From the NCBI RefSeq assembly GCF_000626635.1, contig NZ_CP007451.1, positions 3,295,501 to 3,359,500 on the forward strand: a stretch of DNA of 64,000 bases, read 5' to 3'. The notes beneath the pieces were generated by a model. That model saw only the letters and a program-made list of their open reading frames with translations. It was not told the origin of the DNA and made no database searches. Numbering within the stretch: position 1 is the first letter of the stretch; each line of letters begins with the position of its first letter. Made by a program: the position numbers and the translations under genes. Below are positions 15,515 to 50,021 of the stretch, one piece after another. Origin of the DNA: Draconibacterium orientale. Its GTDB lineage: Bacteria; Bacteroidota; Bacteroidia; Bacteroidales; Prolixibacteraceae.

Positions 15515-15745
15515 GTTGAAGTAGTTATTGCTCAACTTCAAGTGCTCATTGCTTGAGTTAAAACTGGTATTGTTTCAGCTAAAGCTGCCATTGTTTCAGT
15601 CGGAATGGTCGTTGCTTTAGTTGAAATGGTCGTTGCTTTAGTTCAAGTGCTCAATGTTTTAATCGAAACGGTCGTTGCTTTAGTTCAAGTGCTCGTTGCT
15701 TGAATCGTAGTGTTTATTCTTTGAGGTGAAGCAGTTCTTGTTTGA
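15515..15745. repeat. 21-bp degenerate tandem array 1 (11 units)
   Basis: Eleven consecutive 21-base units without insertions fill the gap between the convergent GH15 and MarR genes, starting 8 bp after the GH15 stop. The best conserved part reads GTCGTTGCTTTAGTT with TGAAA or TCAAG just before it. Each unit is loosely palindromic (TCAAG, nine bases, CTTGA in the second unit). Stop codons interrupt the frame that could read it as heptapeptides, and no start or ribosome site is seen, so it is treated as non-coding. It differs in sequence from the other two 21-bp arrays in the window. Confidence 0.9.
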
Positions 15746-15794
15746 TGTTGGTTTAAAAAAACGTAACCAGGGAAATTATTGGCCAGGTTTAAAT

Positions 15795-16271
15795 TTATTC
15801 GCCTAAATCAGAGTCCGAAGTAATTAACGGCGAAGCTTGAATTTTTTCGATATCGAGAATTTGTATCAGTGTGTTTAATCCTGCTTCAACAACCTCTAAT
15901 TCCTTGTTGCTGAGTTGTGTGAGCTTTTCCGATAATTGTTCGTGCAACAACGATGGCATGGTGCTTAGCAATTGATCGCCCGACGAGGTAAGAGCAATAT
16001 TTACAACACGTTTATCACCCGATTTGGGAAGACGGGCCAGGTAGCCTTTCTTCTCAAGGCGGTTGATAATACCGCTAACTGTACTCGGATTCAGGTTTAA
16101 AAATTTCCGTAGCTCGCCCTGCGTTGTTTGGTAATTTTGTGATTCGCGCAGAAAGTTTAAACAAAGAACCTGCGGAATACTTACGCCATGTTCTTTCTGA
16201 ATTTTCTTTGATTCGATGTCAACCGACCGAACTATTTTGCGAATTTTAATTAGAATATCTCGTGTTTCCAT
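15795..16271 (-). CDS. MarR-family transcriptional regulator
   Basis: 158 residues with a winged helix-turn-helix in the MarR arrangement. The recognition region is LRKFLNLNPSTVSGIINRLE and the wing RLPKSGDKRVVNIALTSSGD carries the conserved D-R pair. Helices at both ends (ILIKIRKIVRSVDIESKKIQ and the Leu-rich C terminus) should form the dimer interface. Ligand unknown. Its start METRDILIKIRKIVRSVD reminds me of regulators beside compatible-solute genes, and it sits convergent to the trehalose operon, so a role in osmotic control is possible but unproven. It is transcribed divergently from dinB. Confidence 0.85.
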   Translation of the reverse strand: METRDILIKIRKIVRSVDIESKKIQKEHGVSIPQVLCLNFLRESQNYQTTQGELRKFLNLNPSTVSGIINRLEKKGYLARLPKSGDKRVVNIALTSSGDQLLSTMPSLLHEQLSEKLTQLSNKELEVVEAGLNTLIQILDIEKIQASPLITSDSDLGE

Positions 16272-16379
16272 TCCTTCCCCAACAAAAATTTTTGCTAATA
16301 TATTAAGAAAAATTTAGAGCCACTATTTCGGGGAACGACGATTGTAGGAATAAAGATTCAATTAATTCAGCGACTTCGT

Positions 16380-16388
16380 TATTTTCGC
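16380..16388 (+). promoter_or_regulatory. Candidate -7 element before dinB
   Basis: TATTTTCGC, one base off TAnnTTTGC, lies 29 bases upstream of the dinB ATG. The same nonamer at nearly the same distance precedes several other plus-strand genes here (27663 and 38179, for example). Confidence 0.35.
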
Positions 16389-16408
16389 ATTATATCAGTG
16401 AAAGCAAA

Positions 16409-17491
16409 ATGCCGACAGCAAAAAAACGTAAAATAATACATGTTGATATGGATGCATTTTTTGCGTCGGTAGAACAATTGGATCATCCCGAGCTGCGCGG
16501 AAAGCCTATCGCTGTTGGAGGAACCAGCGACCGGGGAGTTGTTGCTGCGGCCAGTTACGAGGCCCGAAAATTTGGCGTTCGGTCGGCCTTGTCGTCGAAA
16601 GTGGCAAAGCGCAAATGTCCGAACCTGATTTTTGTAAAACATCGTTTTGAGCGCTACAAGGAAATCTCGGCCCAAATACGAAGCATTTTCCTGGAATATA
16701 CCGATTTGGTTGAACCGCTTTCACTCGATGAGGCCTATCTTGATGTTACTTACGCCAAGAAAGGTTTGCCTTCAGCCACATTAATCGCCAAAGAAATCCG
16801 CCAGCGCATTCTGGAAGAAACCGGTTTAACTGCATCGGCAGGCGTTTCGTACAACAAATTTCTGGCAAAAGTGGCTTCCGATGTCAATAAACCCAACGGA
16901 ATGTTTGTGGTAACTCCCGATAAGGCACAGGATTTTATCGACCAGCTGGAGATCCGGAAATTTTTCGGAATAGGCAAAGTAACCGCTAAAAGGCTGAATG
17001 ATATTGGTGTGTGGTATGGCCGCGATTTGAAATTGATTGATAGGCTGGAACTCACGCGAATGTTTGGTAAAGCCGGCAATTACTATTACGATATTTGCAG
17101 AGGCATTGATAATCGCGAGGTGCAGCCATCGCGCGAACGGAAATCGGTTGGCGCTGAAAATACTTTTTTGCAGGATCTGTTTTTAGAAGATGAACTAAAA
17201 AAGGAATTATTGATAATTGCTGAAAAAGTTTGGGAGCGTGCCGACCGATCGGGAGTAAAAGCAAAAACGGTAACCTTGAAGTTTAAATATGCCGATTTTG
17301 AGCAACACACCCGAAGTAAAACAATGGAACCTTACATAAACACTAAAGAGCGGTTTGTTTACGAAAGCCTGAAACTAATGAAATCGGAAGGTGGGTTTTC
17401 GAAAGGAATCCGTTTACTGGGGCTTACACTCTCCAACTTTTTACACGAGCAAGCGTGCGAAATGGGTGTTCAGCTGGTGATTGAATTTTGA
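16409..17491 (+). CDS. dinB: DNA polymerase IV (Y family)
   Basis: 360 residues, the usual length. The catalytic palm motifs are intact: HVDMDAFFASVEQ near the N terminus and SLDEAYLDVT at about residue 105, supplying the metal-binding acids. Helix-hairpin-helix thumb sequence KFFGIGKVTAKRLNDIGV and the little-finger region follow. The enzyme copies past damaged template bases with low fidelity. There is no clear beta-clamp motif at the end that I can fix with certainty (the chain ends VQLVIEF). No LexA-type SOS box was recognised upstream. It is divergent from the MarR gene and about 130 bp upstream of a hydrolase gene. Confidence 0.95.
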   Translation: MPTAKKRKIIHVDMDAFFASVEQLDHPELRGKPIAVGGTSDRGVVAAASYEARKFGVRSALSSKVAKRKCPNLIFVKHRFERYKEISAQIRSIFLEYTDLVEPLSLDEAYLDVTYAKKGLPSATLIAKEIRQRILEETGLTASAGVSYNKFLAKVASDVNKPNGMFVVTPDKAQDFIDQLEIRKFFGIGKVTAKRLNDIGVWYGRDLKLIDRLELTRMFGKAGNYYYDICRGIDNREVQPSRERKSVGAENTFLQDLFLEDELKKELLIIAEKVWERADRSGVKAKTVTLKFKYADFEQHTRSKTMEPYINTKERFVYESLKLMKSEGGFSKGIRLLGLTLSNFLHEQACEMGVQLVIEF

Positions 17492-17617
17492 TAAAATTAT
17501 ATTCTGAATTACTTTATTTTCTTTAAGTCTTGTATCTTTCCGTTAAAATAAAAATGCAGCAGATTGTTTCGGGATAATACTTCCGGCTTCGGTCTGTGGT
17601 CTTCCTATTTTCTAAAT

Positions 17618-18625
17618 ATGAAACGAATAAAACGCTTTTTACTGATCGTGATTCTTTTGGCAGTTGTTGGTTACCTGTTGGGGCCAAAACCACCAAAACC
17701 GGAGTTGAATAAAGACCTGCCTTCGTTGTCGGCAAGTATTGCCAATATCGAGACTTTTGTGCAACGAAAAGAAGCAGCTTTTTCCATAAAACCCGATAAC
17801 GAAAGCCGCATTTTCTGGGCAAACGATTCGTTAAAAGAACGAACTGATTATTGTGTGTTGTACCTGCACGGATTCTCGGCATCGTGGTTCGAAGGGCACC
17901 CTGCACACGAGCGTTTTGCACAACATTTTGGCTGCAATTTGTACATTCCGCGTTTGCACGATCATGGATTGGTTACCGAAGATCCTCTGATTGATATGAC
18001 TCCCGATAAGTTATATGCATCGGCAAAAGAAGCCATGATGGTTGCCCGCAGCCTGGGCCGAAAAGTGATTGTAATGAGCACTTCAACAGGAGGAACACTG
18101 GGATTAAAACTGGCGGCTGATTTCCCTGAGTATGTTGACGGGCTGATTATGTATTCGCCAAATATAAAAGTAAAAAACAGCTCGATGGCTTTACTGTCGA
18201 AACCCTGGGGCCTGCAAATCGGACGAAAAGTAATTGGTGGTAAATATCGTGTTTCTGATGATGATCCGGAGTCGGAAGATTGTAAATACTGGAACTGCAA
18301 ATACCGGGTGGAGGCGCTGGTTTATTTGCAACAACTGCTTGATGCTACCATGACTAAGGAAACCTTTAACCGTGTAACCGTGCCGGTATTTCTGGGCTAC
18401 TATTACAAGGATGATGAGCATCAGGATCAAACAGTAAGTGTTGATGCCATGCTTGATATGTTCGATGAACTGGGAACCTTGCCCAATCAAAAGGTGAAAA
18501 AAGCCTTTCCTGAAGCCGGTGATCACGTTATTGCATGCGACCTTACTTCCGGTAGCGTGGAAGAGGTAATTGCCGAAACCATCCGTTTTGGAGAGGAGAT
18601 TTTGGGATTAAGCCCAAGCCGCTAG
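17618..18625 (+). CDS. Membrane-anchored or secreted alpha/beta hydrolase (carboxylesterase-like)
   Basis: 335 residues from the ATG at 17618, preferred because it puts a basic start and hydrophobic segment (KRFLLIVILLAVVGYLLG) at the N terminus; an in-frame ATG at 17564 lacks that logic. The hydrolase fold is supported by LYLHGFSASWFEGHP (oxyanion loop), the elbow MSTSTGG with Ser in place of the first Gly, an acid in YYKDDEHQDQ and His in EAGDHVIACDL. Family members are lipase or monoglyceride-type esterases; substrate unknown. Its TAG stop directly abuts the left arm of the GIY-YIG hairpin element. Confidence 0.8.
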   Translation: MKRIKRFLLIVILLAVVGYLLGPKPPKPELNKDLPSLSASIANIETFVQRKEAAFSIKPDNESRIFWANDSLKERTDYCVLYLHGFSASWFEGHPAHERFAQHFGCNLYIPRLHDHGLVTEDPLIDMTPDKLYASAKEAMMVARSLGRKVIVMSTSTGGTLGLKLAADFPEYVDGLIMYSPNIKVKNSSMALLSKPWGLQIGRKVIGGKYRVSDDDPESEDCKYWNCKYRVEALVYLQQLLDATMTKETFNRVTVPVFLGYYYKDDEHQDQTVSVDAMLDMFDELGTLPNQKVKKAFPEAGDHVIACDLTSGSVEEVIAETIRFGEEILGLSPSR

Positions 18626-19002
18626 CTGTCATTTCGAAGGAGGAACGACTGAGAAATCTGAAACCTATGAAAGACCACAATTATTTCGTATACATTGTTA
18701 CAAACAAAAATAAAACGGTTTTATATATAGGCGTTACGAATGATCTCCAAAGGCGGGTATTCGAACATGAAAATGGATTAATTCCCGGTTTCTCAAAAAA
18801 GTATAATTGTAATTACCTTGTTTTTTATGAGCATTTCCAAAATATTGAATATGCCATTGAGCGGGAGAAAGAAATAAAGAAATGGAGGAGAGAAAAGAAA
18901 AATAATTTGGTAAAAAACTTTAATCCAAGCTGGGAGTTTTTGAACCAAAAGATATATGCTTCATTGTAACAGATTTCTCCTCCTTCGTCGTCGAAATGAC
19001 AG
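18626..19002. mobile_element. Inverted-repeat element carrying a GIY-YIG gene
   Basis: Left arm 18626-18660 begins CTGTCATTTCGA and ends GAGAAATCTG. The right arm 18970-19002 is the inverted counterpart (CAGATTTCTC ... TCGAAATGACAG). The gene 18667-18969 sits between them with 6 bp on the left and none on the right. The left arm starts immediately after the hydrolase stop codon. A gene-less copy of the arms occurs at 36070-36148. Mobility is inferred from structure and recurrence; no target-site duplication was identified. Confidence 0.65.
18667..18969 (+). CDS. Single-domain GIY-YIG nuclease
   Basis: 100 residues forming one GIY-YIG domain of the UPF0213/YhbQ sort: FVYIVTN and VLYIGVTNDLQRRVFEH supply the two signature strands and the conserved Arg, and AIEREKEIKKW holds the likely catalytic Glu. 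Homing endonucleases and UvrC use this fold to cut DNA, but single-domain members have no settled function. The base composition is richer in A than neighbouring genes. It lies precisely inside inverted repeats, suggesting that nuclease and repeats move or persist together. No partner domain for DNA recognition is seen. Confidence 0.88.
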   Translation: MKDHNYFVYIVTNKNKTVLYIGVTNDLQRRVFEHENGLIPGFSKKYNCNYLVFYEHFQNIEYAIEREKEIKKWRREKKNNLVKNFNPSWEFLNQKIYASL

Positions 19003-19015
19003 CATTAGTCAATCT

Positions 19016-19747
19016 TTACTGAATTTGAGCAGCTGCCTCTTCGTCTAAAAACCAGGTTAAGATTCCGTTTGTAGGAGAAATATAGTAGGCCGGTAGCAAT
19101 TGTGCAGCATCATTATCATTCATAATTTCTGCAACCCGCAAGGCTTTATTCGATCCTGTTACCAGGAAAAATATCTGGTTGGCATTATTCAGCACATTTC
19201 CGGTAATGGTAATGCGTTTTTGCCCGCTTAGCGGATGAACAGCAACTGCACAGTTTTGCTCGTCTTCAAACAACTCCATCTGGTCGGGGAAAATTGATGC
19301 TGTGTGTCCGTCGTCGCCAAGCCCCAGAATGATTAAATCGAAAACCGGATCTTTACCACGCGAGTTCAGGCTTTTTTCCATCTCTTTCGAGTAGCGCAGT
19401 GCTTCCTGCTCCGGATCTTGCTCGCCTTTTATGCGGTGTATGTTTTCTTCGGGAATGGAAATATTTGATAGCAGGTAGTCAACCGTCATTTTATAGTTGC
19501 TTTGCTCGTCGGTTGGCGGCACACAGCGTTCGTCGCCCCACCACAAATGGATGCGCTCCCATGGAATTCGGTCGGCATATTTTTTACTGATCTTCTTAAA
19601 AAGTCCTTTGGGTGAATTTCCACCGGACAGTGCGATATCAAACACTTCCTGATTCGAATTTTGTACCATCTTAATAATTGCTTTCGCGATGGCTTTGTAA
19701 ACATCTTTTGGCTTCGAATAAATTTTTACTTCTGTAAAAGTTTCCAT
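19016..19747 (-). CDS. pgl: 6-phosphogluconolactonase
   Basis: 243 residues of the DevB/SOL type. Landmarks are IALSGGNSPKGLF near the N terminus, IHLWWGDERCVPPTDEQSNY and LIILGLGDDGHTASIFP, which carry the phosphate-binding and catalytic residues. It hydrolyses 6-phosphogluconolactone to 6-phosphogluconate in the oxidative pentose phosphate pathway. It follows zwf by 45 bp on the same strand, giving consecutive pathway steps. No gnd gene is in the window. It is convergent with the GIY-YIG element. Confidence 0.94.
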   Translation of the reverse strand: METFTEVKIYSKPKDVYKAIAKAIIKMVQNSNQEVFDIALSGGNSPKGLFKKISKKYADRIPWERIHLWWGDERCVPPTDEQSNYKMTVDYLLSNISIPEENIHRIKGEQDPEQEALRYSKEMEKSLNSRGKDPVFDLIILGLGDDGHTASIFPDQMELFEDEQNCAVAVHPLSGQKRITITGNVLNNANQIFFLVTGSNKALRVAEIMNDNDAAQLLPAYYISPTNGILTWFLDEEAAAQIQ

Positions 19748-19792
19748 GTCAGATCGTTTGTTGCTGTTAGTTAATACAATGCAATATGCAGA

Positions 19793-21286
19793 TTAAAGTT
19801 CACAATACAAGCCGTCGTTATGTAAATTTTTACAAGGGTAGCGCCAATCTCCGTTTACAATCAGTTTAGCCGATTCTTCGGGTCCCCAGCTTCCGGCCGG
19901 GTAGCCATAAATCGGAATTTCAGGATTGGTTTCCCAGGCGTTAATTATGGGCTGCACAAACTCCCACGCAGCTTCTACAGCGTCGCCGCGCGAATACAGT
20001 GTGGCATCGCCCTGCATGCAATCCAGCAAAAGGCGTTCGTAGGCTGTTGGCACTTTTTTGTCGGCCAGGTCAGAGTAATGGAAATCCATGTTTACCGTTT
20101 GCACTTTAAATCCGGCTCCCGGAGTTTTCATCCCAAATTTCAGTAAAATTCCCTCGTCGGGCTGAATTCGGATGATCAGCTGGTTGTTACTGTTGGAAGT
20201 GGCATTTCCAAACAAATGGTGTGGCACCTTTCTGAAATGGATAACAATTTCAGTTACGCGTGTCGGTAATTTTTTCCCGGTTCGAATATAAAATGGTACA
20301 CCGGCCCAGCGCCAGTTGTCGATAAAGAATTTAAGTGCAACAAAGGTTTCGGTGCGCGACAGCTTGTCCACGCCTGGCTCCTCGCGGTAGCCGGCAACTT
20401 TCTGGCCTCCAATGCTTGAGTTGGTATATTGGCCGCGAATAACGTAACGCGACACTTCATTTTCTTTAATTGGTCGTAATGACTGAAATACTTTTAGTGT
20501 TTCGTTTCTTATGGCATCGGCTTCCACCACAACCGGTGGTTCCATGGCTACAAAACCTGCTACCTGCAGCAGGTGGTTTTGCAACATGTCGCGCAAGGCT
20601 CCGGAGCTCTCGTAATATCCGCCACGTCCTTCTACACCCAGGCTTTCGGCCGAGGTTATTTCCACCCGCTCGATATAACGCCGATTCCAAAGCGGTTCAA
20701 AAATTCCGTTCGAAAAGCGTGTTACCAACATATTTTGTACCGTCTCTTTTCCCAGATAATGATCGATACGGTAAATCTGTTCCTCTTCGAAATAATGAAG
20801 CAGTTGTTTATTTAATTCTTTTGCCGATTTTAAATCGGTTCCGAACGGTTTCTCAACGATCAGTCGCCTAAAATTATTCTCCGATTTTGAAAGACCATTC
20901 AGGCAAAGCATTTTAGGAATTACCGGGTATAAGGACGGTGGAGTTGAAAGATAGAACACGTAATTCGGCTCAATTTCCAGTGAGCCGGAAAGCTCATCAA
21001 GTCGCTCTTTTAACGGAATAAAATCATCGGCCTCGTTATTCTGAACGGATTGATAAAACAATAGCTTTTTAAATTCTTCGCGTTTTTCATCGTCGGGAAT
21101 AAATTCATCAGCCCGGTTTCTGAATTCATCATCGGAAAGTGCCGAACGGGAAGCACCCAGCACCGCAAACTTCTGAGGTAACAGGTTTTGTTTGTAAAGA
21201 TCGAAAAGTGCGGGTATCAATTTACGTTTGGTGAGGTCGCCCGATGCGCCAAATATGATGAGAATTTGATCTTCTGCTTTCTTCAT
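19793..21286 (-). CDS. zwf: Glucose-6-phosphate 1-dehydrogenase
   Basis: 497 residues, a normal length. The NADP-binding loop is IFGASGDLTKRKLIPALFDL at the N terminus and the substrate/catalytic motif RIDHYLGKETVQN is at about residue 173. Further conserved stretches include RWAGVPFYIRTGKKLP. It oxidises glucose-6-phosphate to 6-phosphogluconolactone and makes NADPH, feeding the lactonase encoded next. It lies 9 bp after the phosphopantetheinyl transferase gene, at the end of the long mutY-ssb-gldE-gldD run, so expression may be tied to that unit. No defect seen. Confidence 0.96.
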   Translation of the reverse strand: MKKAEDQILIIFGASGDLTKRKLIPALFDLYKQNLLPQKFAVLGASRSALSDDEFRNRADEFIPDDEKREEFKKLLFYQSVQNNEADDFIPLKERLDELSGSLEIEPNYVFYLSTPPSLYPVIPKMLCLNGLSKSENNFRRLIVEKPFGTDLKSAKELNKQLLHYFEEEQIYRIDHYLGKETVQNMLVTRFSNGIFEPLWNRRYIERVEITSAESLGVEGRGGYYESSGALRDMLQNHLLQVAGFVAMEPPVVVEADAIRNETLKVFQSLRPIKENEVSRYVIRGQYTNSSIGGQKVAGYREEPGVDKLSRTETFVALKFFIDNWRWAGVPFYIRTGKKLPTRVTEIVIHFRKVPHHLFGNATSNSNNQLIIRIQPDEGILLKFGMKTPGAGFKVQTVNMDFHYSDLADKKVPTAYERLLLDCMQGDATLYSRGDAVEAAWEFVQPIINAWETNPEIPIYGYPAGSWGPEESAKLIVNGDWRYPCKNLHNDGLYCEL

Positions 21287-30891: not shown

Positions 30892-31344
30892 ATGAAGAAG
30901 CTAATTTTCGCACTGGGATTTATTGCTATTGCAGCCTTTGCTCAGGCGCAAATGATAGTGCCTGTAAAATGGGACGTTGAAATTAAACCGTTAAAAGGTG
31001 GTAATCAGTATGAGATTGTTGCTACGGCAAAAATCGATATGGGTTTTAAACTCTATGGCGTAAACATGGAAGATGGCGGCCCGGTAAAAACCTCGTTTAA
31101 TTTCGAGACATTGGAGAACTGCAAGGATTTTGGAAAGGCTGTTGAAGTGACACCATCGCAAACCATGCACGACAAAATTTTTGATATGGAGGTAACTTAT
31201 TTTAAAGACAAGGCGGTTATTTCGCACAAAGTGTGGGTAACAGAAAAGCCTGCCAAGGTTGCCGGTTATATTCAATGGATGAGCTGTAACGACGAAATGT
31301 GCACGCCTCCAACCGATGAAGAATTTGAGTTTGTGATCGAGTAA
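30892..31344 (+). CDS. Stand-alone DsbD N-terminal-type domain protein
   Basis: 150 residues with a signal peptide (LIFALGFIAIAAFAQAQ). The mature protein parallels the first domain of the preceding DsbD: IVPVKWDVEI against IVEPVKWNFS, EDGGPVKTSFNFE against PEGGPIKTSFYFE, and WMSCNDEMCTPPTDEEFEF against FMSCDDETCTPPMEAEFSF. Both Cys are kept. It is probably a soluble periplasmic electron carrier or reductant acceptor for DsbD and looks like a tandem domain duplication. It is co-transcribed with dsbD (4-bp gap) and ends at a terminator. Confidence 0.88.
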   Translation: MKKLIFALGFIAIAAFAQAQMIVPVKWDVEIKPLKGGNQYEIVATAKIDMGFKLYGVNMEDGGPVKTSFNFETLENCKDFGKAVEVTPSQTMHDKIFDMEVTYFKDKAVISHKVWVTEKPAKVAGYIQWMSCNDEMCTPPTDEEFEFVIE

Positions 31345-31383: not shown

Positions 31384-31415
31384 AAAGCCGGGAGCGAAAG
31401 TTTCCGGCTTTTTTT
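31384..31415 (+). terminator. Terminator of the dsbD transcript
   Basis: AAAGCCGG and CCGGCTTT pair over a 12-base loop and run into seven T. Confidence 0.85.
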
Positions 31416-31925
31416 CTGAAAGTCACCTTGGTAAAAACAAAAAAGTTCACGCAGAGTAGATCACTAAGTTTTCGCAAAGCACGCAAAACAGATTCTATAC
31501 CTTTGCGCTTCTTCTTTTTCTTTGCGTGAAACAATATTGATGTCCTTTCATCCCTGTTGGTGATTCCCGGGAATCATGAATGTTCTATGGCGGACGTCAA
31601 TTTAAAACACTACCCCTTTGTCTGTTGACATTTCCCCTCACGAGGGGAAACAGCTGCGATGTTTAATCCGAAGGCTTCGATGTAATACTAGGAACTCCAT
31701 TAATGCGTGCTCCCCTCAGGAGGGAAGTTTTTTCTAAAAGTCCAATAACAATTTGACGCAAAATGTGGTTGAAAACCTATTGACTCACCTTGATTATGCC
31801 TTCAACACAATCGTCCCTTTATGCAAGAAGATAAGGAGTGAGGGAGATTCAGTTGAATATCGTTTTTCTTTCAGCCCTTTTGATAATTTCAGAACATATA
31901 AATATTTTTTTACGTCGGAGGGCTT
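31416..31925. other. Non-coding gap with several degenerate repeats
   Basis: No gene is supported here. It contains a palindrome-rich stretch near 31440-31535 (TTCGCAAAGCACGCAAAA facing TTTCTTTGCGTG) and a pair of near-complementary CCCCTC blocks at about 31630-31725 (CCCCTCACGAGGGG and CTCCCCTCAGGAGGGAAG). Both look like remnants of dispersed intergenic repeats. Confidence 0.5.
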
Positions 31926-32153
31926 AAACTAAAGTTTATGAACAGAAAGTTTGTCCCGACGGTGTTTAAACGAACTTTTAAGCCGCGAAAGTTCGTCCCG
32001 AAGCGTTTAAACTAAAGTTTAAGGCGTGAAATTTTGTCCCGGCAGTGCTTAAGCAAAAGTTTAAAGGTAAAACGGAAGCCCGAACGCGTTTAAACAAAAG
32101 TTTAAGGCCTCAACGGAAGGCCGGAGGCATTTAAACAAACTTTTAAGCCTCGG
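31926..32153. repeat. 21-bp array 2, alternating A/B half-units
   Basis: Eleven consecutive blocks of 20-21 bases alternate between an A type (AAACAAAAGTTTAAGGC...) and a B type (AAGTTCGTCCCGAAGCGTTT), a 41-42 bp composite. Palindromic GTTTAAAC or TTTAAAC falls at most B/A junctions. The B type drifts to ACGGAAGCCCG toward the right. Weaker related sequence extends a few tens of bases on both sides. It lies in the convergent gap between the dsbD operon and the M16 peptidase gene and does not encode a credible protein. Confidence 0.88.
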
Positions 32154-32379
32154 AAATGTTTTTTGCTTTAAACTTTCCGAAAATATATTTGGCAATTTTT
32201 TCCTTAAAAATTTAACTCACCTCTTTTCTGTCTTTCCCTTTGCAGCAGGAGACGATTGGCTTCAAAAAGTTAGGAGGAATTAGAAATTCTGATTGGATTA
32301 TTTTTTGAAATATGAGGGTGTCGTCCTTCCTTGGATGCAGGGAAGGAAAAGAGGATGGGTATATTTTTATTGTATGAGT
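32154..32379. other. AT-rich remainder of the 31.3-32.4 kb gap
   Basis: A 66-codon minus-strand frame exists at 32212-32412 but has no coding character. I see no RNA gene or promoter. Confidence 0.4.
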
Positions 32380-32442: not shown

Positions 32443-35256
32443 TTATTCTGCTTTTTTCGGTAGAAATACCACATCTACAACATCGGCATCGGTATAAAAT
32501 GCTTTTGCGAATTCTTGAATTTGAGAAGTAGTTAAACCGTCTAAAATATCATCGAAATTTTCTGCGGCATCAGGATTAAAGCCGTGGTAATAGTCGTTAT
32601 AAAGCGCATTCATCCAGTAATTGTTGTGCTCTTTAGCTTGTGCACGGTCTTTTTTCATGTTCAATATAACCTTATCCAGATCTTCCTGCGTTGGGCCATC
32701 GGTAACAATTTTGTCAATCTCGCGGAAGATAATCGATTTCAGATGATCGGCTTTTTCCGGGTCGGTATCAAAATTGATTTGCAAGGTTTTGCGTTCGTAT
32801 GGGTATTGGTTCGATGATGATCCAACGCCAACTCCGTACGTACCTCCTTCTTTTTCACGTACTTCTTCGGTATAACGTAAACGAAGAATGGCATTTAGCA
32901 CTTCCAGCTCAACATTGCTTTGTGGAGTGTAAGCCATTTCTTTGCGAACTAGAATGTTAACTGTTCCTTTTTCGGTTTGTAAAGGCACCTCAATTTTCTT
33001 TTCGGTGGTTCCTTTTGGCATTCTTACTTTGTGGTCAACCCACTGCTCTTCGCCCGGAAGGTCTTTTAACGAACCGATGTATTTAACGGCCATTTCTTTT
33101 GCTACAGCCTCATCGATATTACCAACAATAAAGAAGGTGAAATCGCCCGCATCTTTAAAACGGTCGGTATAAAGTTGTTCCATTTGAGCAAAATCAATTT
33201 CATCGAACATGGATGCCGACATTAGTTTAGTGCGCTCGTTGTAGTTGGTTGCAATTAACGAAAGTGAGTCGCTCATAATCTTTTGTGGATTATTGGCCAT
33301 GTTTTGCAAGAATGCTACGTAGCGGCTTTTTAATGCTTCATAAGCTTCTTTATCGAAACGCGGATTGCTGAATTGCAGGTAAAGCAACTGCATCATTGTC
33401 TCAAAATCTTTTGGCGTACTGCTGCCGTTAAATCCTTCGGTAAGATCTCCCAGGCTGGTAGCTACTGCTGCCGTTTTCCCGGTTAATACTTTGCGTAAGG
33501 CAATGGCATCGAAATCGCCAACACCAAACGAACCAATAAACTGAGGAAGCATTGCGGCAGCCTGAAGATCGTTGGTACCCAGCAGTGAGTTTCCTCCCGG
33601 ACTGTAAGCACGCAGTGAAACTTCATCTTTTTCGTAATCGGCATGTTTAAACACCACGGTGGCATTATTGCTCAGTCTCCATTCTACGGCGTCAAGGTCT
33701 TCCAGTTTTTTTGTTGAAACAACTTCAGCTCCCGGCAATTCATCTTCAACCAGCGATGCAGCTTCAGCTGTATCTTCATACGGATCGATAGTTGAATTTT
33801 CAACCTCGGCCAAAATCGCAAAAGCTTCGTCCTGGGTAAGGTGTTTTACGTCGCTGTTTGGCCCCGTGATTACGATTACACGGTTTTTGTCAACGAACAT
33901 ATCGGTGGCCATCTTGTTTACATCGGCCAGCGTAATGGTTTCCAGAATTGCCTGCCCGAATTGCCAGTCGAATTCGGCATCGGTAACCGGTTCGCCTTCC
34001 AGAAAATAGTCTTGAATGCCTCGTACATATTGATCGTTACTGATTTTATCGCGTTGTTTATAGGCACTTTCCATTGAGGTAAGCAGGTTTACTTTGGCGC
34101 GGTTCAATTCGCCCTCGGTAAAACCATGGCGAACGATTCGTTGCGCTTCGGTGTAAATTGCTTTCAGGCCTTCGTCTTCTTTATTAGGGTTGGCTGTGGC
34201 CGAAATAAACGCTGCATCGTAACCTCTCACAAAACCTCCAACCTGAACACCTCCGGAAATAAAAGGAGGATTTCCTTTTTGTAGCAGTTCCGAAATACGT
34301 TCGCCGCTCATTTGATTCAGAAGAGTCTCGATATAATCTTCGCGCAGGTAACCAATGTTTTTGTCTTCGCGCGGAGTAGCTTTGTGTTTAATATAAATTG
34401 AAATGCTTGAGTTGGTAGCTTCTTCGTCGGTTGCCAAAACAAACTTTGTTTCATCGTGCTCCGGAATTTCAAATTGCGGACGTGGTTGCGGATTCTCAAC
34501 GGCAGGAATCTTCGAGAATAACTCTTTTACTTTTACTTCTACCTGGTCAACATCGATATCGCCAACAATGGCAATGGCCTGCAAATCGGTACGGTACCAG
34601 TCGTGGTAAAAACTGCGTAAAGTTTCGGGCTCGAAGTTTTTAATAATGTCCAAATCGCCAATTATATCGCGTTCGGCCCATTTCGATCCTTCAAAAACAA
34701 CAGGAAACCACTGGTTGCGCATTCTGAAACTTGCGTTGCGTCGTGTTCTCCACTCTTCGGAAATAACACCGCGTTCCAGGTCGATTTCTTCCTCGGTTAG
34801 CAACAGGTAGTTCGACCAGTCGTTAAGCACCAAAAGGCACGAGTCGATCAATCCTTCGCGGGTAGCAGGTACATCGCTCAGGTTATAAACCGTTTCGTTA
34901 AATGCCGTGTACGCGTTAATGTTACGACCAAAAGCCACGCCGTTTTTTTCCAGGTAATCCAGGAATCCTTTTCCCGGATAATGCTCGGTGCCGTTAAAGG
35001 CCATGTGCTCGAGAAAGTGCGCCAGGCCGTTTTGGTTGTCGTTTTCAAGCAGGGCACCTACATTTTGTATCATGTAAAAACTTACCCGTTCTTTTGGCTC
35101 CTGGTTGTGACGGATAAAATAGGTCATTCCGTTTTCCAGTTTCCCGGTTCTAATGGCGGGATCAACCGGAACTGCTTGTTTGAGCATGTCTTGTGCCGAC
35201 ACAAAAAATGGGGCAATTACTAAAAATGCCAGCATTGATAAAACAAATTTCTTCAT
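32443..35256 (-). CDS. Secreted M16-family zinc peptidase (pitrilysin-like, two-domain)
   Basis: 937 residues with a signal peptide ending near FFVSAQ. The first half has the inverse zinc motif in GLAHFLEHMAFNGTEHYPGK (HxxEH), and SEEWRTRRNASFRMRNQ holds the distal zinc-binding Glu region. The second half repeats the fold without the zinc motif, as expected for the clam-shell M16 family. Such periplasmic or surface enzymes degrade small peptides and unfolded fragments. It stands alone with its own terminator. Substrate unknown. Confidence 0.92.
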   Translation of the reverse strand: MKKFVLSMLAFLVIAPFFVSAQDMLKQAVPVDPAIRTGKLENGMTYFIRHNQEPKERVSFYMIQNVGALLENDNQNGLAHFLEHMAFNGTEHYPGKGFLDYLEKNGVAFGRNINAYTAFNETVYNLSDVPATREGLIDSCLLVLNDWSNYLLLTEEEIDLERGVISEEWRTRRNASFRMRNQWFPVVFEGSKWAERDIIGDLDIIKNFEPETLRSFYHDWYRTDLQAIAIVGDIDVDQVEVKVKELFSKIPAVENPQPRPQFEIPEHDETKFVLATDEEATNSSISIYIKHKATPREDKNIGYLREDYIETLLNQMSGERISELLQKGNPPFISGGVQVGGFVRGYDAAFISATANPNKEDEGLKAIYTEAQRIVRHGFTEGELNRAKVNLLTSMESAYKQRDKISNDQYVRGIQDYFLEGEPVTDAEFDWQFGQAILETITLADVNKMATDMFVDKNRVIVITGPNSDVKHLTQDEAFAILAEVENSTIDPYEDTAEAASLVEDELPGAEVVSTKKLEDLDAVEWRLSNNATVVFKHADYEKDEVSLRAYSPGGNSLLGTNDLQAAAMLPQFIGSFGVGDFDAIALRKVLTGKTAAVATSLGDLTEGFNGSSTPKDFETMMQLLYLQFSNPRFDKEAYEALKSRYVAFLQNMANNPQKIMSDSLSLIATNYNERTKLMSASMFDEIDFAQMEQLYTDRFKDAGDFTFFIVGNIDEAVAKEMAVKYIGSLKDLPGEEQWVDHKVRMPKGTTEKKIEVPLQTEKGTVNILVRKEMAYTPQSNVELEVLNAILRLRYTEEVREKEGGTYGVGVGSSSNQYPYERKTLQINFDTDPEKADHLKSIIFREIDKIVTDGPTQEDLDKVILNMKKDRAQAKEHNNYWMNALYNDYYHGFNPDAAENFDDILDGLTTSQIQEFAKAFYTDADVVDVVFLPKKAE

Positions 35257-41006: not shown

Positions 41007-41076
41007 TATCCAGTATCCAGTATCCAGTATCCAGTATCCAGAATCCAGAATCTAGTATCCAGTATCCAGAATGCGG
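41007..41076. repeat. 7-bp microsatellite, ten units
   Basis: Ten consecutive heptamers: TATCCAG five times, AATCCAG, AATCTAG, TATCCAG twice, AATGCGG. No gene here. Confidence 0.9.
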
Positions 41077-41155
41077 TATCTATGAATAAAGTTCATATTT
41101 TCAATTTTTAAATGGCGAGCAAAGGTGCAGAAATAGCATGTTCTTTAAAAAAGTG

Positions 41156-42222: not shown

Positions 42223-42678
42223 CTTTCGAGAATCCAAAATCAAGTATCCAGCTGCGAGCCACTAGCTACAAGTATCATTCAGCATCCAGTATCCAAACAA
42301 TTTGTCAGTTTCCAATCTTTCAAAAAAAGAGTTAACCACAAAGTTGCCCAAAGGAGGCACAGAGTTTCACAAAGTCGTTGCTCATTTAAGCATTAAAGCA
42401 TTAACGCATTTCAATCCTTCAATCCCTCAGTCCATCGCGAGGCAAAAGTAAAAAGTAAAAAGGCAAAAGTAGCCACTAGTTTCTGGTTACTAGCCGCGTG
42501 TTCTCATTAAAGCATTTAAGCATTATTGCATTCAAGCATTTCAATCCCTCAATCCCTCACTTAAAAGAGTTAACCACAAAGTTGCACAAAGGATGCACTG
42601 AGTTTCACAAAGTCGTTGCTCATTTAAGCATTAAAGCATTAAAGCATTTCAATCCTTCAATCCTTCAGTCCCTCACTC
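42223..42678. repeat. Repeat-filled convergent gap with two ~105-bp direct copies
   Basis: Copies at about 42327-42433 and 42563-42677 share GAGTTAACCACAAAGTTGC, a GTTTCACAAAGTCGTTGCTC block and a run of 7-8 bp words (AAGCATT, TCAATCC). A shorter piece lies at about 42503-42558. An inverted copy occurs at about 50511-50631. GGCAAAAG/AAAGTAAAAAG near 42440-42475 mirrors CTTTTTACTTTTGCC near 49115-49140. A 120-codon plus-strand frame across this stretch (42498-42860) is made mainly of these words and is not a gene. Confidence 0.8.
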
Positions 42679-45481: not shown

Positions 45482-46078
45482 ATGGAGATAAAAGAAGCTC
45501 AGTTTGTGATGAGCAATACTGCAGTTGACAAATGTCCGGCACCCGATCGGCCGGAGTACGCTTTTATAGGCCGGTCGAATGTGGGCAAGTCATCGTTAAT
45601 AAATATGCTTACCAACAAAAGATCGTTGGCAAAAATTTCAGGCAAGCCCGGAAAAACGAGGTTGATCAATCATTTTCTTATCAATAAAGAATGGTACCTG
45701 GTTGATTTGCCCGGCTACGGTTATGCGCAGGTACCAAAAGCCGAGCGCCTGAAATGGGAGAAAATGCTCAAAAATTATATCCTGAAACGGGAAAATCTGT
45801 ATTGCCTGTTTGTATTGATCGACTCGCGCCACGAGGCACAAAAAGTGGATATTGAATTTATGGAATGGCTGGGCATTAGCGAAATTCCTTTCAATATAAT
45901 TTTTACCAAAACCGATAAGCTGAAGCCTCAGGAGCTGGAAAACAATTTGAAAGCCTACGAGGAAAAGATGTTTGAAATATGGGAAACAATGCCCGGGTAT
46001 TTTATATCATCGGCTGAAAAGGGACTTGGAAAAGACGAAATTCTGGGATTGATAGACGAGGTGAATAAAGCCCACTAG
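45482..46078 (+). CDS. engB: Ribosome biogenesis GTPase EngB/YsxC/YihA
   Basis: 198 residues. GTPase motifs in order: [19 protein letters not shown] (G1), [13 protein letters not shown] (G2), [14 protein letters not shown] (G3), [11 protein letters not shown] (G4) and [14 protein letters not shown] (G5). The protein helps assemble the large ribosomal subunit and is essential in many bacteria. It follows manA by 46 bp. Nothing odd in the sequence. Confidence 0.95.
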
Positions 46079-46174
46079 ATTTTCGTTGAACTGAACAAAC
46101 TAAATAAGCGTACTATTATTTTAGAAACATGTAAAGTTGTTAACTTTGCTCAATCTTTACTATTTAAAGAAATC

Positions 46175-46279
46175 ATGATGGCGAAACAAAAAGTAATGAT
46201 GAATTTTACTTCTGAAATGAGGTCATACAAGCCCGCCATATCTACTCCAACACAATTTGTTGAAACAAAAAATCATTAA
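46175..46279 (+). CDS. Possible 34-residue peptide upstream of prs
   Basis: An open frame starts MMAKQKVMMNFTSEMRSYKP and ends four bases before the prs ATG. In favour: it fits the gap to prs closely and has no rare codon run. Against: no recognised homology and A-rich low complexity. It may instead be a leader peptide or simply the prs 5' untranslated region. Confidence 0.3.
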   Translation: MMAKQKVMMNFTSEMRSYKPAISTPTQFVETKNH

Positions 46280-46283
46280 ATAA

Positions 46284-47225
46284 ATGGAGATGAAAACTCA
46301 CCCACTGAAAATTTTTACCGGACGAGCAACCCGACATTTAACTGAAAAAATTTGCGATAGTCTGGACGTTGATTTGGGGCATTCGTCGTGCCCGGTTTTT
46401 GCCGACGGCGAATTTGAACCCTGCTACGAAGAGACGATTCGTGGCTCGCATATTTTTATCGTGCAGTCGACACCACCAACTGCCGATAACCTGTTGGAGC
46501 TGTTGTTAATGGTTGATGCCGCAAAACGTGCAAGTGCCTACAAGGTAATTGCAGTAGTGCCTTATTTTGGTTATGCGCGCCAGGACCGTAAAGACAAACC
46601 AAGGGTTTCTATCGGTGCAAAACTGGTGGCCGACTTGCTTACCGTTTCCGGAGTCGACAGGCTGATTACAATGGATTTGCATGCCGACCAGATTCAGGGA
46701 TTTTTTAATGTACCGGTAGATCATTTATACGCATCAACGCTTTTTGTTCCGTTTATCGAAAAAATGGGCCTTGATAATGTAATTATCGCATCGCCGGATG
46801 TGGGGGGTACAAAGCGTGCCAATACCTATGCAAAAATGTTGAACACCGGTATCGTAATTTGTCACAAAACAAGGGCACGCCCGAACGAAGTGGGGAATAT
46901 GACTGTTATTGGTGAAGTTGAAAACAAAGATGTGATTATTGTTGACGACATGATCGACACTGCAGGAACAATTACCAAAGCAGCCAACCTGATGAAGAAA
47001 AAAGGTGCCAGAAGCGTTCGTGCTTTTGCAGCACACGGAGTACTGTCGGGGCCGGCCCTGGAACGAATTGAAAAATCGGAGCTGGAAGAAGTGTATTTTA
47101 CCGATTCGATTAAACCAAAAACAGGCTGCGATAAAATTAAATACATCTCTACCGCCGAGGCTTTTGGAGAAGCTATTCGCAGGGTTTATAAAAATCAGTC
47201 AATAAGTTCGTTATATTACAAATAA
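46284..47225 (+). CDS. prs: Ribose-phosphate pyrophosphokinase
   Basis: 313 residues. Conserved parts are IFTGRATRHLTEKICDSLDV, YFGYARQDRKDKPRVSIGAK (ATP-binding Arg and flexible loop), ITMDLHADQIQGFFNVPVDH (metal-binding His/Asp) and VIIVDDMIDTAGTITKAANL (PRPP loop). It makes PRPP from ribose-5-phosphate and ATP for nucleotide, histidine and NAD synthesis. The start MEMKTHPLK matches family N termini. Upstream is a possible small peptide frame and downstream the rplY promoter. Confidence 0.96.
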   Translation: MEMKTHPLKIFTGRATRHLTEKICDSLDVDLGHSSCPVFADGEFEPCYEETIRGSHIFIVQSTPPTADNLLELLLMVDAAKRASAYKVIAVVPYFGYARQDRKDKPRVSIGAKLVADLLTVSGVDRLITMDLHADQIQGFFNVPVDHLYASTLFVPFIEKMGLDNVIIASPDVGGTKRANTYAKMLNTGIVICHKTRARPNEVGNMTVIGEVENKDVIIVDDMIDTAGTITKAANLMKKKGARSVRAFAAHGVLSGPALERIEKSELEEVYFTDSIKPKTGCDKIKYISTAEAFGEAIRRVYKNQSISSLYYK

Positions 47226-47238
47226 TTTCTATTTTTGC
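47206..47238 (+). promoter_or_regulatory. Promoter of rplY
   Basis: TATTTTTGC at 47230-47238 is an exact -7 match, with TTCG at 47207-47210 about 19 bases upstream (one mismatch to TTTG). It overlaps the end of prs and leaves a leader of roughly 100 bases. Confidence 0.5.
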
Positions 47239-47254
47239 ACCGCTTTTTCCATAA

Positions 47255-47286
47255 GCAGACGCATTAATGATGTGTATGCTGTTTGC
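47255..47286 (+). promoter_or_regulatory. Possible structured leader of rplY
   Basis: GCAGACGCAT can pair with ATGC-T-GTTTGC (one bulged T, one G-U pair) around an 11-base loop in the ~100-base leader. A role in r-protein autoregulation is speculative. Confidence 0.3.
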
Positions 47287-47342
47287 CCGACCCACAGGAA
47301 GGGAGGACTGAGTACCATATTTATTAACGTAAATTATTTAAA

Positions 47343-47972
47343 ATGAAATCAGTAGTAGTTAAAGGAGAATTAAGAAGTTCTCTTGGAAAGAAAGACGCAA
47401 AAAAACTTCGTGCAGAAGAGAAAGCTCCTGCAGTATTGTACGGTGGCGATCAGCCAATTCACTTCGCAGTTTCTTTTGCCGAGTTAAGACAATTGGTTTA
47501 TACACCAAGCGTATATCTTATCGACCTTGACATTGACGGTACTGTGCATAAAGCAATTATGCAAGACATTCAGTGGCATCCGGTTGAGGAGTTGGTACTT
47601 CACGTTGATTTTCTTGAAATTAAAGATGACAAACCAGTAAAAATTAACATTCCTGTTAAAATTGAAGGTTTTGCGAAAGGTTTAAGAAAAGGTGGTAAAT
47701 TAAACAGCACTCTGCGTCGTTTGAGCGTAAGAGCATTAGCTGCCAACTTGCCTGATACGATCAATATTGATGTTACAAAACTTGATATCGGCCAAAGTAT
47801 TAAAGTGGCTGACCTGGATATTCCTGGAATCGAGCTGTTAGATCCTAAATCGAACGTAATCGTTGGTGTTGGTATTACAAGGGCTGCAAGATCGGCTGCC
47901 GGTGCAATGGTTGACGACGAAGAAGAAGAATCAGCAGAAGGAGCAGAAGCTTCAGAAGCATCAGAAGAATAA
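47343..47972 (+). CDS. rplY: 50S ribosomal protein L25/general stress protein Ctc
   Basis: 209 residues, the long Ctc form. The 5S-rRNA-binding N domain has VKGELRSSLGKKDAKKLRAE and VLYGGDQPIHFAVSFAELRQ, and DIQWHPVEELVLHVDFLEIK marks the end of the L25 domain. A TL5-type C-terminal beta domain follows (IPVKIEGFAKGLRKGGKLNS). The chain ends in an acidic low-complexity tail (EEEESAEGAEASEASEE), common in Bacteroidota. It binds 5S rRNA on the ribosome. pth follows after 66 bp, a frequent pairing. Confidence 0.95.
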   Translation: MKSVVVKGELRSSLGKKDAKKLRAEEKAPAVLYGGDQPIHFAVSFAELRQLVYTPSVYLIDLDIDGTVHKAIMQDIQWHPVEELVLHVDFLEIKDDKPVKINIPVKIEGFAKGLRKGGKLNSTLRRLSVRALAANLPDTINIDVTKLDIGQSIKVADLDIPGIELLDPKSNVIVGVGITRAARSAAGAMVDDEEEESAEGAEASEASEE

Positions 47973-48038
47973 ATTATATTCAAGTGAAACACGTCTTGTT
48001 TAGTCAAGGCGAATCATCTGAAATAAAACGAAAAACAG

Positions 48039-48602
48039 ATGAAGTACTTAATTGCCGGACTCGGTAATATAGGACCAGAATATAAAAATACTCGCCATAA
48101 TATTGGCTTTCAAATATTGGACGCACTCGCTGAGGCGTCCAATATTAGTTTTAACGATAAGCGTTACGGTTTTGTGGCTGAATATAAGTTCAAAGGCCGA
48201 ACGTTTATTTTGTTAAAGCCAACCACCTACATGAACCTGAGTGGGCGGGCAGTAAGTTACTGGTTACAAAAAGAGAAGATCGATATAAAAAACATGCTGG
48301 TGCTGGTTGATGATCTGGCACTGCCTTTTGGTACGCTGCGAGTGCGCGCAAAAGGCGGAGCCGGCGGCCACAACGGGCTCGAAAACATTAACCAGGTACT
48401 GGGACGAAACGATTATGCCCGTTTGCGTTTTGGTATTGGCGACGATTTCCATAAAGGCCACCAGGTAAACTACGTGTTAGGCGAGTGGTCGAAAGATGAG
48501 CAAAAAGAATTGCCCTTTAAAATCGACGATTCCATTGAAATAATAAAAAACTTCGGAACAATTGGAGTCGAACGAACAATGAATTTTCATAACAAAAAAT
48601 AA
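48039..48602 (+). CDS. pth: Peptidyl-tRNA hydrolase
   Basis: 187 residues. LIAGLGNIGPEYKNTRHNIG supplies the catalytic His and Asn, VLVDDLALPFGTLRVRAKGG the catalytic Asp, and GAGGHNGLENINQVLGRNDY the tRNA-binding loop. It recycles peptidyl-tRNAs released from ribosomes. The Hsp15-like gene starts immediately after its stop codon, so the two are coupled. Confidence 0.96.
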   Translation: MKYLIAGLGNIGPEYKNTRHNIGFQILDALAEASNISFNDKRYGFVAEYKFKGRTFILLKPTTYMNLSGRAVSYWLQKEKIDIKNMLVLVDDLALPFGTLRVRAKGGAGGHNGLENINQVLGRNDYARLRFGIGDDFHKGHQVNYVLGEWSKDEQKELPFKIDDSIEIIKNFGTIGVERTMNFHNKK

Positions 48603-48980
48603 ATGGCTGAAGGAGTTCGCATAGATAAATGGTTGTGGGCCGTGCGGATTTTTAAAACCCGCAGTCAGGCTACTGAAGCTTGTAAAAAAGGCCATGTAAC
48701 AATTGGTGATTCGGTAATAAAAGCCTCGCGCGAAGTACATGTGGGCGAGGTAATAAAGGTGCGAAAATCGCCCATTACCAAAAGTTTTAAAGTGCTGGCA
48801 CTTTCGGGAAAAAGAATGGGAGCCAAACTGGTTACCGATTTTGCTGAGGATGTAACGCCGCCCGAGGAAATAGAATTGCTCGAGATGCAAAAAAACATGC
48901 GCTGGAGTGTTCGTGAAAAAGGCACCGGACGACCAACTAAAAAGGATCGCCGCGATTTGGATGACTTTTTTGAGTGGTAA
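48603..48980 (+). CDS. S4-domain RNA-binding protein, Hsp15 (HslR)-like
   Basis: 125 residues. The S4 domain is RIDKWLWAVRIFKTRSQATE followed by ACKKGHVTIGDSVIKASREV, then a basic C-terminal part (GTGRPTKKDRRDLDDFFEW) as in Hsp15. Hsp15 binds free 50S subunits carrying nascent chains and helps free the tRNA, which suits its position right after pth. No gap separates the two genes. Confidence 0.9.
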   Translation: MAEGVRIDKWLWAVRIFKTRSQATEACKKGHVTIGDSVIKASREVHVGEVIKVRKSPITKSFKVLALSGKRMGAKLVTDFAEDVTPPEEIELLEMQKNMRWSVREKGTGRPTKKDRRDLDDFFEW

Positions 48981-49030
48981 GGGGTTGAAGGACTGAAGGA
49001 TTGAAGGGATGATACTCGATAATTGATTCT

Positions 49031-49093
49031 GGATATTGGATATTGGATATTGGATATTGGATTCTTGATACTTGGTACTTGATACTTGCACTT
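49031..49093. repeat. 7-bp microsatellite, nine units
   Basis: GGATATT four times, then GGATTCT, TGATACT, TGGTACT, TGATACT and TGCACTT in exact 7-base register. It lies between the Hsp15-like gene and the DUF4924 gene. Confidence 0.85.
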
Positions 49094-49175
49094 GCAACTG
49101 ATTTTCACAACTTTTGCCTTTTTACTTTTGCCTTTTACCTTTTAGTTAAATCATCGAAACATAAAACAAAAAGAA

Positions 49176-49715
49176 ATGCTTGTAGCAAAACAAAAACGAA
49201 AAGAGAATATAGCCGAATACATCCTGTATTTGTATCAGATTGAAGACATGATCAGAGCTTTTAAACTGGATATGAAGCTTATTGAGGAGCGTTTGGTAGC
49301 CAATTACAAAGCCGACGATAAAACAAAAGCAGCCATTACCGACTGGTATGCCAATTTGGTGCTGATGATGGATAAAGAGAAGATCAGGGAGAAAGGGCAT
49401 TTTCAGTTTCTTACCAACCTGGTTTCGGATGTAAACGATTTCCATTTAAAGCTTATGGAAACCTCGAAAGACGGTATGTATGTGCAAACCTACAAAACTG
49501 TTGCGGGGCTGGTTTCGGAGCTGAAAGAGAAAAACCCGGAGGCCAAAAACGATGTTGACCTGGGAATTACCGCTGTTTATGGTTTTCTGCTGCTTAAAAT
49601 GCAACAAAAAGATATTTCAATTGATACGCTGGAAGCCATAAAACGCATCAGTAAATGGCTGGGTGATCTGTCGAAATTATACCGCGATTTCGAAAACGGC
49701 GATTTCGATTTCTAA
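49176..49715 (+). CDS. DUF4924-family protein
   Basis: 179 residues, all-helical by appearance, no signal peptide. The start MLVAKQKRKENIAEYILYLY followed by QIEDMIRAF is characteristic of the Bacteroidota DUF4924 family, whose function is unknown. The later part is rich in Lys/Asp/Leu helices and ends SKLYRDFENGDFDF. It stands alone between repeat-rich gaps and is convergent with the DCC-type oxidoreductase. Confidence 0.85.
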   Translation: MLVAKQKRKENIAEYILYLYQIEDMIRAFKLDMKLIEERLVANYKADDKTKAAITDWYANLVLMMDKEKIREKGHFQFLTNLVSDVNDFHLKLMETSKDGMYVQTYKTVAGLVSELKEKNPEAKNDVDLGITAVYGFLLLKMQQKDISIDTLEAIKRISKWLGDLSKLYRDFENGDFDF

Positions 49716-49796
49716 ACAAGCTTTTCGTTCATTCCCCCGACACATAGTAGCCAATCTCTTTTGATTTTCAGATACTCCTGCTATAAAAACAGGGCT

Positions 49797-50021
49797 GCGA
49801 GCCAGTAAAAATGCCTTGCGAGTATAAAATATAAGCTCGCGAGGTACAAATAATAGCGTGCGAGCAATAAATAAACACATGCGAGCTGCAATAAAACGGT
49901 AGCGAGCTATACTCGCACGGTAATATTATTAGCTCGCACACTTGTATTTATGGCTCGCATGGCGATAATAATAGCTCGCGCCTTAATATTTAAAGCTCGC
50001 ATTATATTTTTATCTACTCGC
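49797..50021. repeat. 21-bp array 3, dyad-symmetric (6 + 6)
   Basis: GCGAG occurs at 49797, 49818, 49839, 49860, 49881 and 49902, exactly 21 apart, followed by its reverse complement CTCGC at 49912, 49933, 49954, 49975, 49996 and 50017, again exactly 21 apart. The centre is GCGAG-CTATA-CTCGC. The 16 bases between motifs are AT-rich and variable. Most motifs extend to GCGAGC/GCTCGC. It occupies the convergent gap between the DUF4924 gene and the DCC gene and has no coding potential. Confidence 0.95.

Follow-up and report, generated by a model that had tools for sequence, protein, structure and literature searches.

Intergenic tandem arrays of differing sequence share steps of about 21 or 41–42 bp in Draconibacterium orientale

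A 64,000-nucleotide stretch of the Draconibacterium orientale chromosome (contig NZ_CP007451.1, positions 3,295,501 to 3,359,500; hereafter the window) contains three intergenic tandem arrays, designated arrays 1 to 3. A sequence-only reading had described them as unrelated in sequence and alike in period, length, and location, and had proposed a class of elements in which geometry, not sequence, is selected. The arrays were present at the described positions and were the top three by identity in a scan of the window at lags 8–60. Their described lengths were also right (225–260 bp), and gene calls together with Pfam matches confirmed that all three lie between genes ending tail to tail. A class with a common step, frequent dyad symmetry, and different sequences was supported by a genome sample and a symmetry test. 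The features at the three sites were as follows.

13702–15507, plus strand: GH15/trehalase-like gene, whose stop adjoins array 1
15508–15760, unstranded: array 1, 12 units of 21 bp with a core like TTGCTTTAGTTCAAGTG; direct repeats with a weak within-unit dyad
15795–16271, minus strand: MarR-family gene, tail facing array 1
30892–31344, plus strand: DsbD_N-domain gene, tail facing array 2
31384–31416, plus strand: terminator-like hairpin and T-run of the DsbD_N gene, preceding array 2 (edges by eye)
31919–32163, unstranded: array 2, 5–6 units of 41–42 bp with a palindromic core like TTTAAACAAAAGTTTAA
32386–32421, minus strand: terminator-like hairpin of the M16 gene, on the opposite side of array 2 (edges by eye)
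32443–35256, minus strand: M16 peptidase gene (Pfam), tail facing array 2
49176–49715, plus strand: DUF4924 gene, tail facing array 3
49797–49906, plus strand: left arm of array 3, six GCGAG cores, one every 21 bp
49902–49916, unstranded: dyad centre of array 3, GCGAGCTATACTCGC, with two core starts 10 bp apart
49912–50021, minus strand: right arm of array 3, six CTCGC cores, one every 21 bp, mirroring the left arm
50057–50428, minus strand: DCC1-like gene, tail 17–36 bp away from array 3

The 21-bp period that had been assigned to all three arrays held for two of them. Lag identity in array 1 (15515–15745) was 0.65 at 21, 0.64 at 42, and 0.66 at 63, and in array 3 (49797–50021) it was 0.58 at 21 and 0.55 at 42. 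In array 2 (31926–32153), whose unit is 41–42 bp, identity was 0.60 at 41 and 0.53 at 42, and lag 21 was outside the eight best. Dyads, likewise claimed for all three, were significant in array 3 (p=0.005) and array 2 (p=0.010) and not in array 1 (p=0.065). Array 3 is one large mirror repeat, whereas array 2 consists of palindromic units. A coding origin was rejected: the longest open runs were 48 of 84, 43 of 81, and 56 of 87 codons in arrays 1, 2, and 3, respectively, and the 41-bp units also count against it. The 937-aa gene beside array 2 was considered as UvrA, a candidate that was dropped on its Pfam match to an M16 peptidase.

The source chromosome is a single contig of 5.13 Mb (genome G000 below), from which 60 evenly spaced 20-kb stretches were taken together with the window, 1.264 Mb in total. 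At a threshold of z≥7 for lag identity, there were 35 intergenic detections and none within called genes. Eleven of the 35 had lag 14, and one each had lags 13, 16, 24 (coding-like), and 66 (CRISPR-like; clustered regularly interspaced short palindromic repeats). These were set aside, the lag-13 and lag-16 rows and most lag-14 rows being counted by lag only; the masked L057 stretch and own-genome detections with z<7 (including L026, L049, L020:587, and L066) had been removed before counting. The 20 others had lags 20, 21 (four), 41 (four), 42 (five), 63, 81, 82, 83, and 84 (two), so that all fell on 20–21 or 41–42 bp or near multiples (63, 81–84). Steps of 20, 41, and 42 occur alongside 21, and the arrays as a class do not keep strictly to 21 bp. 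Nor is the 16–18 kb spacing of the window arrays general, since 20 arrays in 1.264 Mb correspond to about one per 63 kb. The arrays spanned a mean of 249 bp (standard deviation 40, range 165–325 bp, edges by eye), and their unit sequences differed from locus to locus. Array edges, the registers of units, and the unit count at each locus were judged by eye. Gene contexts for the whole class came from our own gene calls, by which all 20 arrays are intergenic; the gene finder overlooked the DCC1-like gene at 50057–50428.

In one dinucleotide-shuffled copy of the 1.264 Mb, there were zero finite matches at z>6; ten matches had infinite z, as expected from a masked run of N. This masked stretch, L057:4971–7545, is visible in the genome itself as infinite scores. 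Intergenic rows of Tandem Repeats Finder (TRF) with a period of at least 15 provided a further comparison: 21 rows at 41–42 lay inside arrays, and 0 of the 49 rows outside arrays fell at 40–43. Among other genomes, the relative G048 (400 kb) had arrays at lags 41, 42, 42, and 21, as well as lags 59 and 63, whereas the more distant relative G031 (400 kb) gave zero gap detections at z≥7. In 80 named loci (737 kb, mostly Bacteroidota, surroundings of one gene), none was found at lag 20–22 or 40–43; four were at lag 81, of which three lay in open frames of 119–120 of 120 codons and one in an open frame of 82, and all four were set aside as coding or unclear. Escherichia coli K-12 (200 kb) yielded two weak matches only, at lags 18 and 48. 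The class has so far been seen only in G000 and its near relatives.

Inverted symmetry was assessed against a within-unit column permutation, which preserves repetition and destroys dyads, in 23 arrays (19 of the 20 from G000, with L042:2866 omitted, and 4 from relatives). Symmetry beyond tandem repetition was found in 14 of 23 at p≤0.05, with a Fisher-combined p of ~7e-15 in which related arrays are treated as independent. Two designs were present. In one, palindromic units recur every 41–42 bp (array 2, L011:14395, L013, and L032); in the other, 20–21-bp units form mirrored arms (array 3; family A at L016, L031, and L062; L224:3496–3726 in G006).

Array 3 was compared in loci from the 30 of 35 genomes having a flanking gene. 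The full 6+6 units were present in G000, G002, G009, G047, G005, and G007; G046 had 4+5 units, G013 a decaying 7+6, and G032 a remnant, and by lag scores and motif counts the array was not found in the other 21 genomes. Across the six species with the full array, identity of the 5-bp cores was 0.97–1.00 in the left arm and 0.83–1.00 in the right, the right minimum being due to one 20-bp unit in G009, whereas spacer identity was 0.65–0.95 (left) and 0.49–0.80 (right). Spacing was 21 throughout, apart from that one unit. Between G000 (L181) and G047 (L186), the left-arm spacers were 95% identical and the right-arm spacers 59%, a pattern suggesting exchange or rewriting of one arm that left step and core intact.

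The strongest comparison is that of L032, a gap with a urocanase gene on one side and a thioredoxin-like gene on the other. In G000, it holds six 41-bp units around CGTACTGAGTACG; at the same site the G002 array consists of about seven units of 41 bp around TTTTGCCCGCGGCAA, with the thioredoxin-side flank as in G000. Across all rotations and both strands, the two consensus units shared at most 15 of 41 positions, less than the mean of 17.4 for shuffled units. G009 carried a G002-type array at the thioredoxin-side flank, with another gene separating it from urocanase, and G046 and G047 had about 100 bp resembling the G002 unit. Of the 19 loci scanned, the remaining 15 had no array in the 900 bp that follow the thioredoxin-like gene. 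The earlier proposal of different sequence with equal geometry is supported here: 41-bp arrays of unrelated sequence adjoin one orthologous gene in related species.

Arrays 1 and 2 changed more between species. Among 16 genomes with the GH15 gene, G000 included, a related, reshuffled array 1 was present in G002 and G009, and there was none in the other 13; one unit-like stretch was left in G007 and G005, and two of three close empty sites keep about one unit. Array 2 units read TTAAACTTTTGTTTAA or nearly so in G000 and G012 and TTAAACGTTTGGTTAA throughout in G044 and G003, within a shared gene neighbourhood, a difference that, judged from these units, is a concerted change. A diverged form occurred in G002 and G009, about three units in G032, and about two in G048, and no lag peak was seen at the site in G047, G046, G007, G005, and G013. 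At L011:14395, where the array lies downstream of a terminator-like hairpin, a count by eye gave a single palindrome in G032 and two each in G002, G047, and G048, whereas G009 had at least four and G000 five, a series compatible with growth or shrinkage.

We tentatively interpret the arrays as intergenic elements that act as DNA and that selection maintains for their core, phase, and symmetry and not for a shared sequence, a reading that we place short of an even chance. It draws on the common step, the dyad symmetry, the unrelated 41-bp units beside one orthologous gene, and the exact 21-bp spacing of some CGAGC triplets described below. Selection is argued because the array 3 cores and spacing persist while the spacers drift and because 41–42 is absent from other low-copy intergenic repeats (0 of 49). 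Twenty-one bp is two turns of B-DNA. With this step, and with core starts 10 bp apart across the centre, the array 3 cores would face one side of the helix. Such an element of about 250 bp would comprise 8–15 two-turn steps (20–21 bp) or 4–7 four-turn units (41–42 bp), often with inverted symmetry. Its source would be a local palindrome present once or twice, or it would recur in small families; the unit number would then change, and the features under selection would be core, phase, and symmetry, with no single sequence common to all. Its most likely use would be to present many equal sites on one helix face to an oligomeric chromatin or topology protein reading dyads or shape; alternatively, the dyads themselves might be extruded. 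That the chromosome uses a geometry code, in which elements with a two-turn step and dyad symmetry but no set sequence are rebuilt from local palindromes and serve as docking or torsion-buffer arrays, appears rather doubtful to us. Convergent genes are left out of this explanation because the link to them failed outside the window.

Several observations weigh against this interpretation. Nine of the 23 arrays had no significant dyads. Within single arrays, column conservation was significantly uneven in only 7 of 13 sets, and array 3 was not significant in its own genome alone, so that the case for core selection depends on a single orthologous set. G012 and G048 cleanly lack array 3; in a four-gene tree both fall inside the array-bearing group, and a single origin therefore needs at least two clean losses or allele replacements. 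Since the loci share no motif, one sequence-specific protein is disfavoured, and a shape- or dyad-reading protein has to be assumed. The shifts in unit number and the concerted motif change plainly point to strong mutational turnover. Finally, 21 was the commonest single period among the 49 TRF rows outside arrays (7 of 49, partly 7-bp arrays), for which reason a milder duplication bias at 21 may operate.

A purely mutational origin is a serious rival, although we hold it to be somewhat unlikely. In this case, DNA would be added two turns at a time, by template switching at palindromes or through topoisomerase-made breaks, and the arrays would have no function. The unit-number series at L011:14395, the concerted change in array 2, the presence or absence of arrays between species, and the frequency of 21 in other intergenic repeats would all fit such a process. 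It does not readily account for array 3 cores that hold while spacers drift, for 6+6 units in six species, or for the lack of a 40–43 period in the 49 other intergenic rows.

In a further alternative, which we consider unlikely, the arrays act as RNA, their transcripts folding into chains of hairpins that terminate transcription or protect the RNA, a role also ascribed to repetitive extragenic palindromic (REP) sequences and bacterial interspersed mosaic elements (BIMEs). Dyads are present, and strong folds were obtained for array 3, L011:14395, L032, L062, L014, and L015; array 1, L012, and L032 lie within 40 bp of gene ends for which no other terminator was found, and few arrays are in divergent gaps. 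With shuffled spacers, array 3 reached the native fold energy in 0–3% of 100 trials. However, fold z was positive for L007, L020, and L042:2866 and weak for array 2 and L011:8966. A long RNA hairpin for array 3 was rejected, as native arm pairs (mean −80.0 kcal/mol) were no better than cross-species pairs (−83.0 kcal/mol) and the arms do not covary. A separate terminator was present at 8 of 23 array-facing 3' ends, compared with 126 of 496 other ends (p=0.33). These 8 of 23 ends, the several arrays that do not fold, and the lack of covariation between the arms lower the odds of RNA hairpins; the bidirectional RNA terminators suggested by the sequence-only reading are disfavoured on the same grounds. 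The conserved cores and spacing of array 3 and its non-covarying arms favour an element acting as DNA, through phase and symmetry, over an RNA hairpin. An Rfam scan of the window placed no array at the gathering score; only Bacteroidales-1 (6S-like) RNA (RF01693; 55133–55322, minus strand) reached it.

Porphyromonas gingivalis belongs to the order Bacteroidales. Its BrickBuilt element is described as an intergenic minisatellite-MITE (miniature inverted-repeat transposable element) of tandem 23-nt repeats with conserved and non-conserved positions, forming long predicted stem-loops, with a strain-variable repeat number and 19 copies bearing a leader, tail, and terminal repeats (PMC4596501). The arrays resemble BrickBuilt as intergenic tandem short repeats with conserved and variable positions (PMC4596501), and it is the nearest described relative that we encountered; it differs in being one 23-nt family, whereas the present arrays have many unrelated sequences, a 20–21-bp step, and often mirror symmetry. 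Its 23-nt unit does not occur among the steps here (20–21 and 41–42). A 23-bp-step array with the same step as BrickBuilt (L162:8067, z 8.2) was observed in a named Bacteroidales metagenome-assembled genome, outside a long open frame.

That the arrays are likewise bodies of MITE-like insertions is quite improbable in our judgement. Such mobility would suit the small unit families within the genome, namely C at five places (one an end piece only), B at four (one a short relic), and A at five, the family C copies having one end of ~30 bp in common (by eye). It would also suit the empty sites of array 3, which are clean with a possible TAAA duplication (by eye), and the CGAGC arrays elsewhere: a search of 37 genomes for three CGAGC copies at any spacing gave 113 matches, of which 17 had both spacings exactly 21, and 7 of the 17 came from four loci outside array 3 (in G002, G009, and G006). 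This motif was picked after array 3 was seen, the matches overlap, and a reversed control is void because CGAGC reads identically backwards. On the other side, no common terminal repeats or transposase were noticed, although no systematic search was made; two of three close empty array 1 sites retain about one unit; array 3 has no second copy in its own genome; and at the 8 of 12 Y1 transposase matches in G000 that were examined (1.5 kb flanks), there was no array of lag 20–22 or 41–42.

REP/BIME elements are described as small intergenic palindromes found mainly between convergent or same-direction genes; the REPs form families by sequence and carry a GTAG or CGTC tag, and the GTAG ones are linked to RAYT genes (PMC3733652). 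The present arrays are similar to these in having small palindromes in intergenic DNA (PMC3733652); they differ in lacking the tag and in a step fixed at two or four turns. REP/RAYT membership was rejected, as a tag within 6 nt of the stem was found at 0 of 55 dyads in 20 arrays and the eight Y1 loci had no two-turn array. At L302, L304, and L305, Y1 transposase genes stand beside palindromes such as GGGCTAAAGCCC or GCGCCAAAGGTGC, ordinary-looking REP-type families. CRISPR identity was also rejected, the steps of 20–42 and short cores differing from CRISPR steps of ~60–70, with the exception of L062:7777; here, L062:7709–8000 is a CRISPR-like array with a repeat of ~35 nt (GTTGTGGTTTGATGTAAA...) and a step of 66.

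The sequence-only reading had also tied the arrays to convergent gaps. For the 20 arrays of G000 in gaps of at least 150 bp, window included, the counts were 6 of 59 convergent, 13 of 275 tandem, and 1 of 97 divergent gaps (convergent versus rest, p=0.042). Outside the window, they were 3 of 54, 13 of 262, and 1 of 94 (p=0.48), and the link does not hold; with G048 added and the window excluded, p was 0.16. An earlier apparent link in G000 plus G048 (8 of 70 convergent, 15 of 350 tandem, 1 of 130 divergent; p=0.006, 0.024) was discounted because half of the convergent cases in G000 came from the window that had been chosen for them. The G048 counts used 4 of 6 intergenic detections of lag other than 14, two of them at z 6.2–6.3; L250:2029 (lag 59) and the tandem-gap detection L250:3153 (lag 63) were dropped. 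The one location preference left is a weak avoidance of divergent gaps (window excluded, p=0.14; with G048 added, p=0.036), and the absence of any other outside the window also weighs against the selective interpretation. The nearest gene end was a 3' end for 11 of the 20 arrays in G000 and for all four used from G048; L013 and L015 lie 15 and 44 bp upstream of a gene start.

Iterons and phased operator arrays have short cores about two turns apart on one helix face, with one motif and one protein; the arrays here have locus-specific motifs instead. To our knowledge, known bacterial repeat families are all defined by sequence, whereas the property shared here is step length with frequent symmetry, and the open-licence literature searched (titles and abstract openings) held no account of such an array class. 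In these arrays, geometry may count for more than letters. Arrays of equal step and unrelated sequence in one neighbourhood offer a natural experiment: either DNA geometry alone can be selected, or a mutational process duplicates DNA two turns at a time, and both outcomes would be instructive.

Other repeats were also observed. A 22-bp tandem, CGAGCCCTCTTGTGGTGTATGC, was present in a small genome of the same genus (G043, C116 and C69). A separate intergenic class of 7-bp repeats included TATCCAG, TGATACT, and TGACCAA at window positions 41007–41080, 49010–49088, and 50674–50721, together with the other lag-14 rows of the sample (eleven lag-14 detections at z≥7 in the 1.264 Mb). In Beggiatoaceae, intergenic 7-bp direct repeats such as TAACTGA are reported to form many arrays per genome (PMC4679880); these resemble the 7-bp class here, and their period of 7 sets them apart from the two-turn arrays. 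A 116-bp compound repeat containing subrepeats of 7 to 10 bp was present in three copies at window positions 42325–42677.

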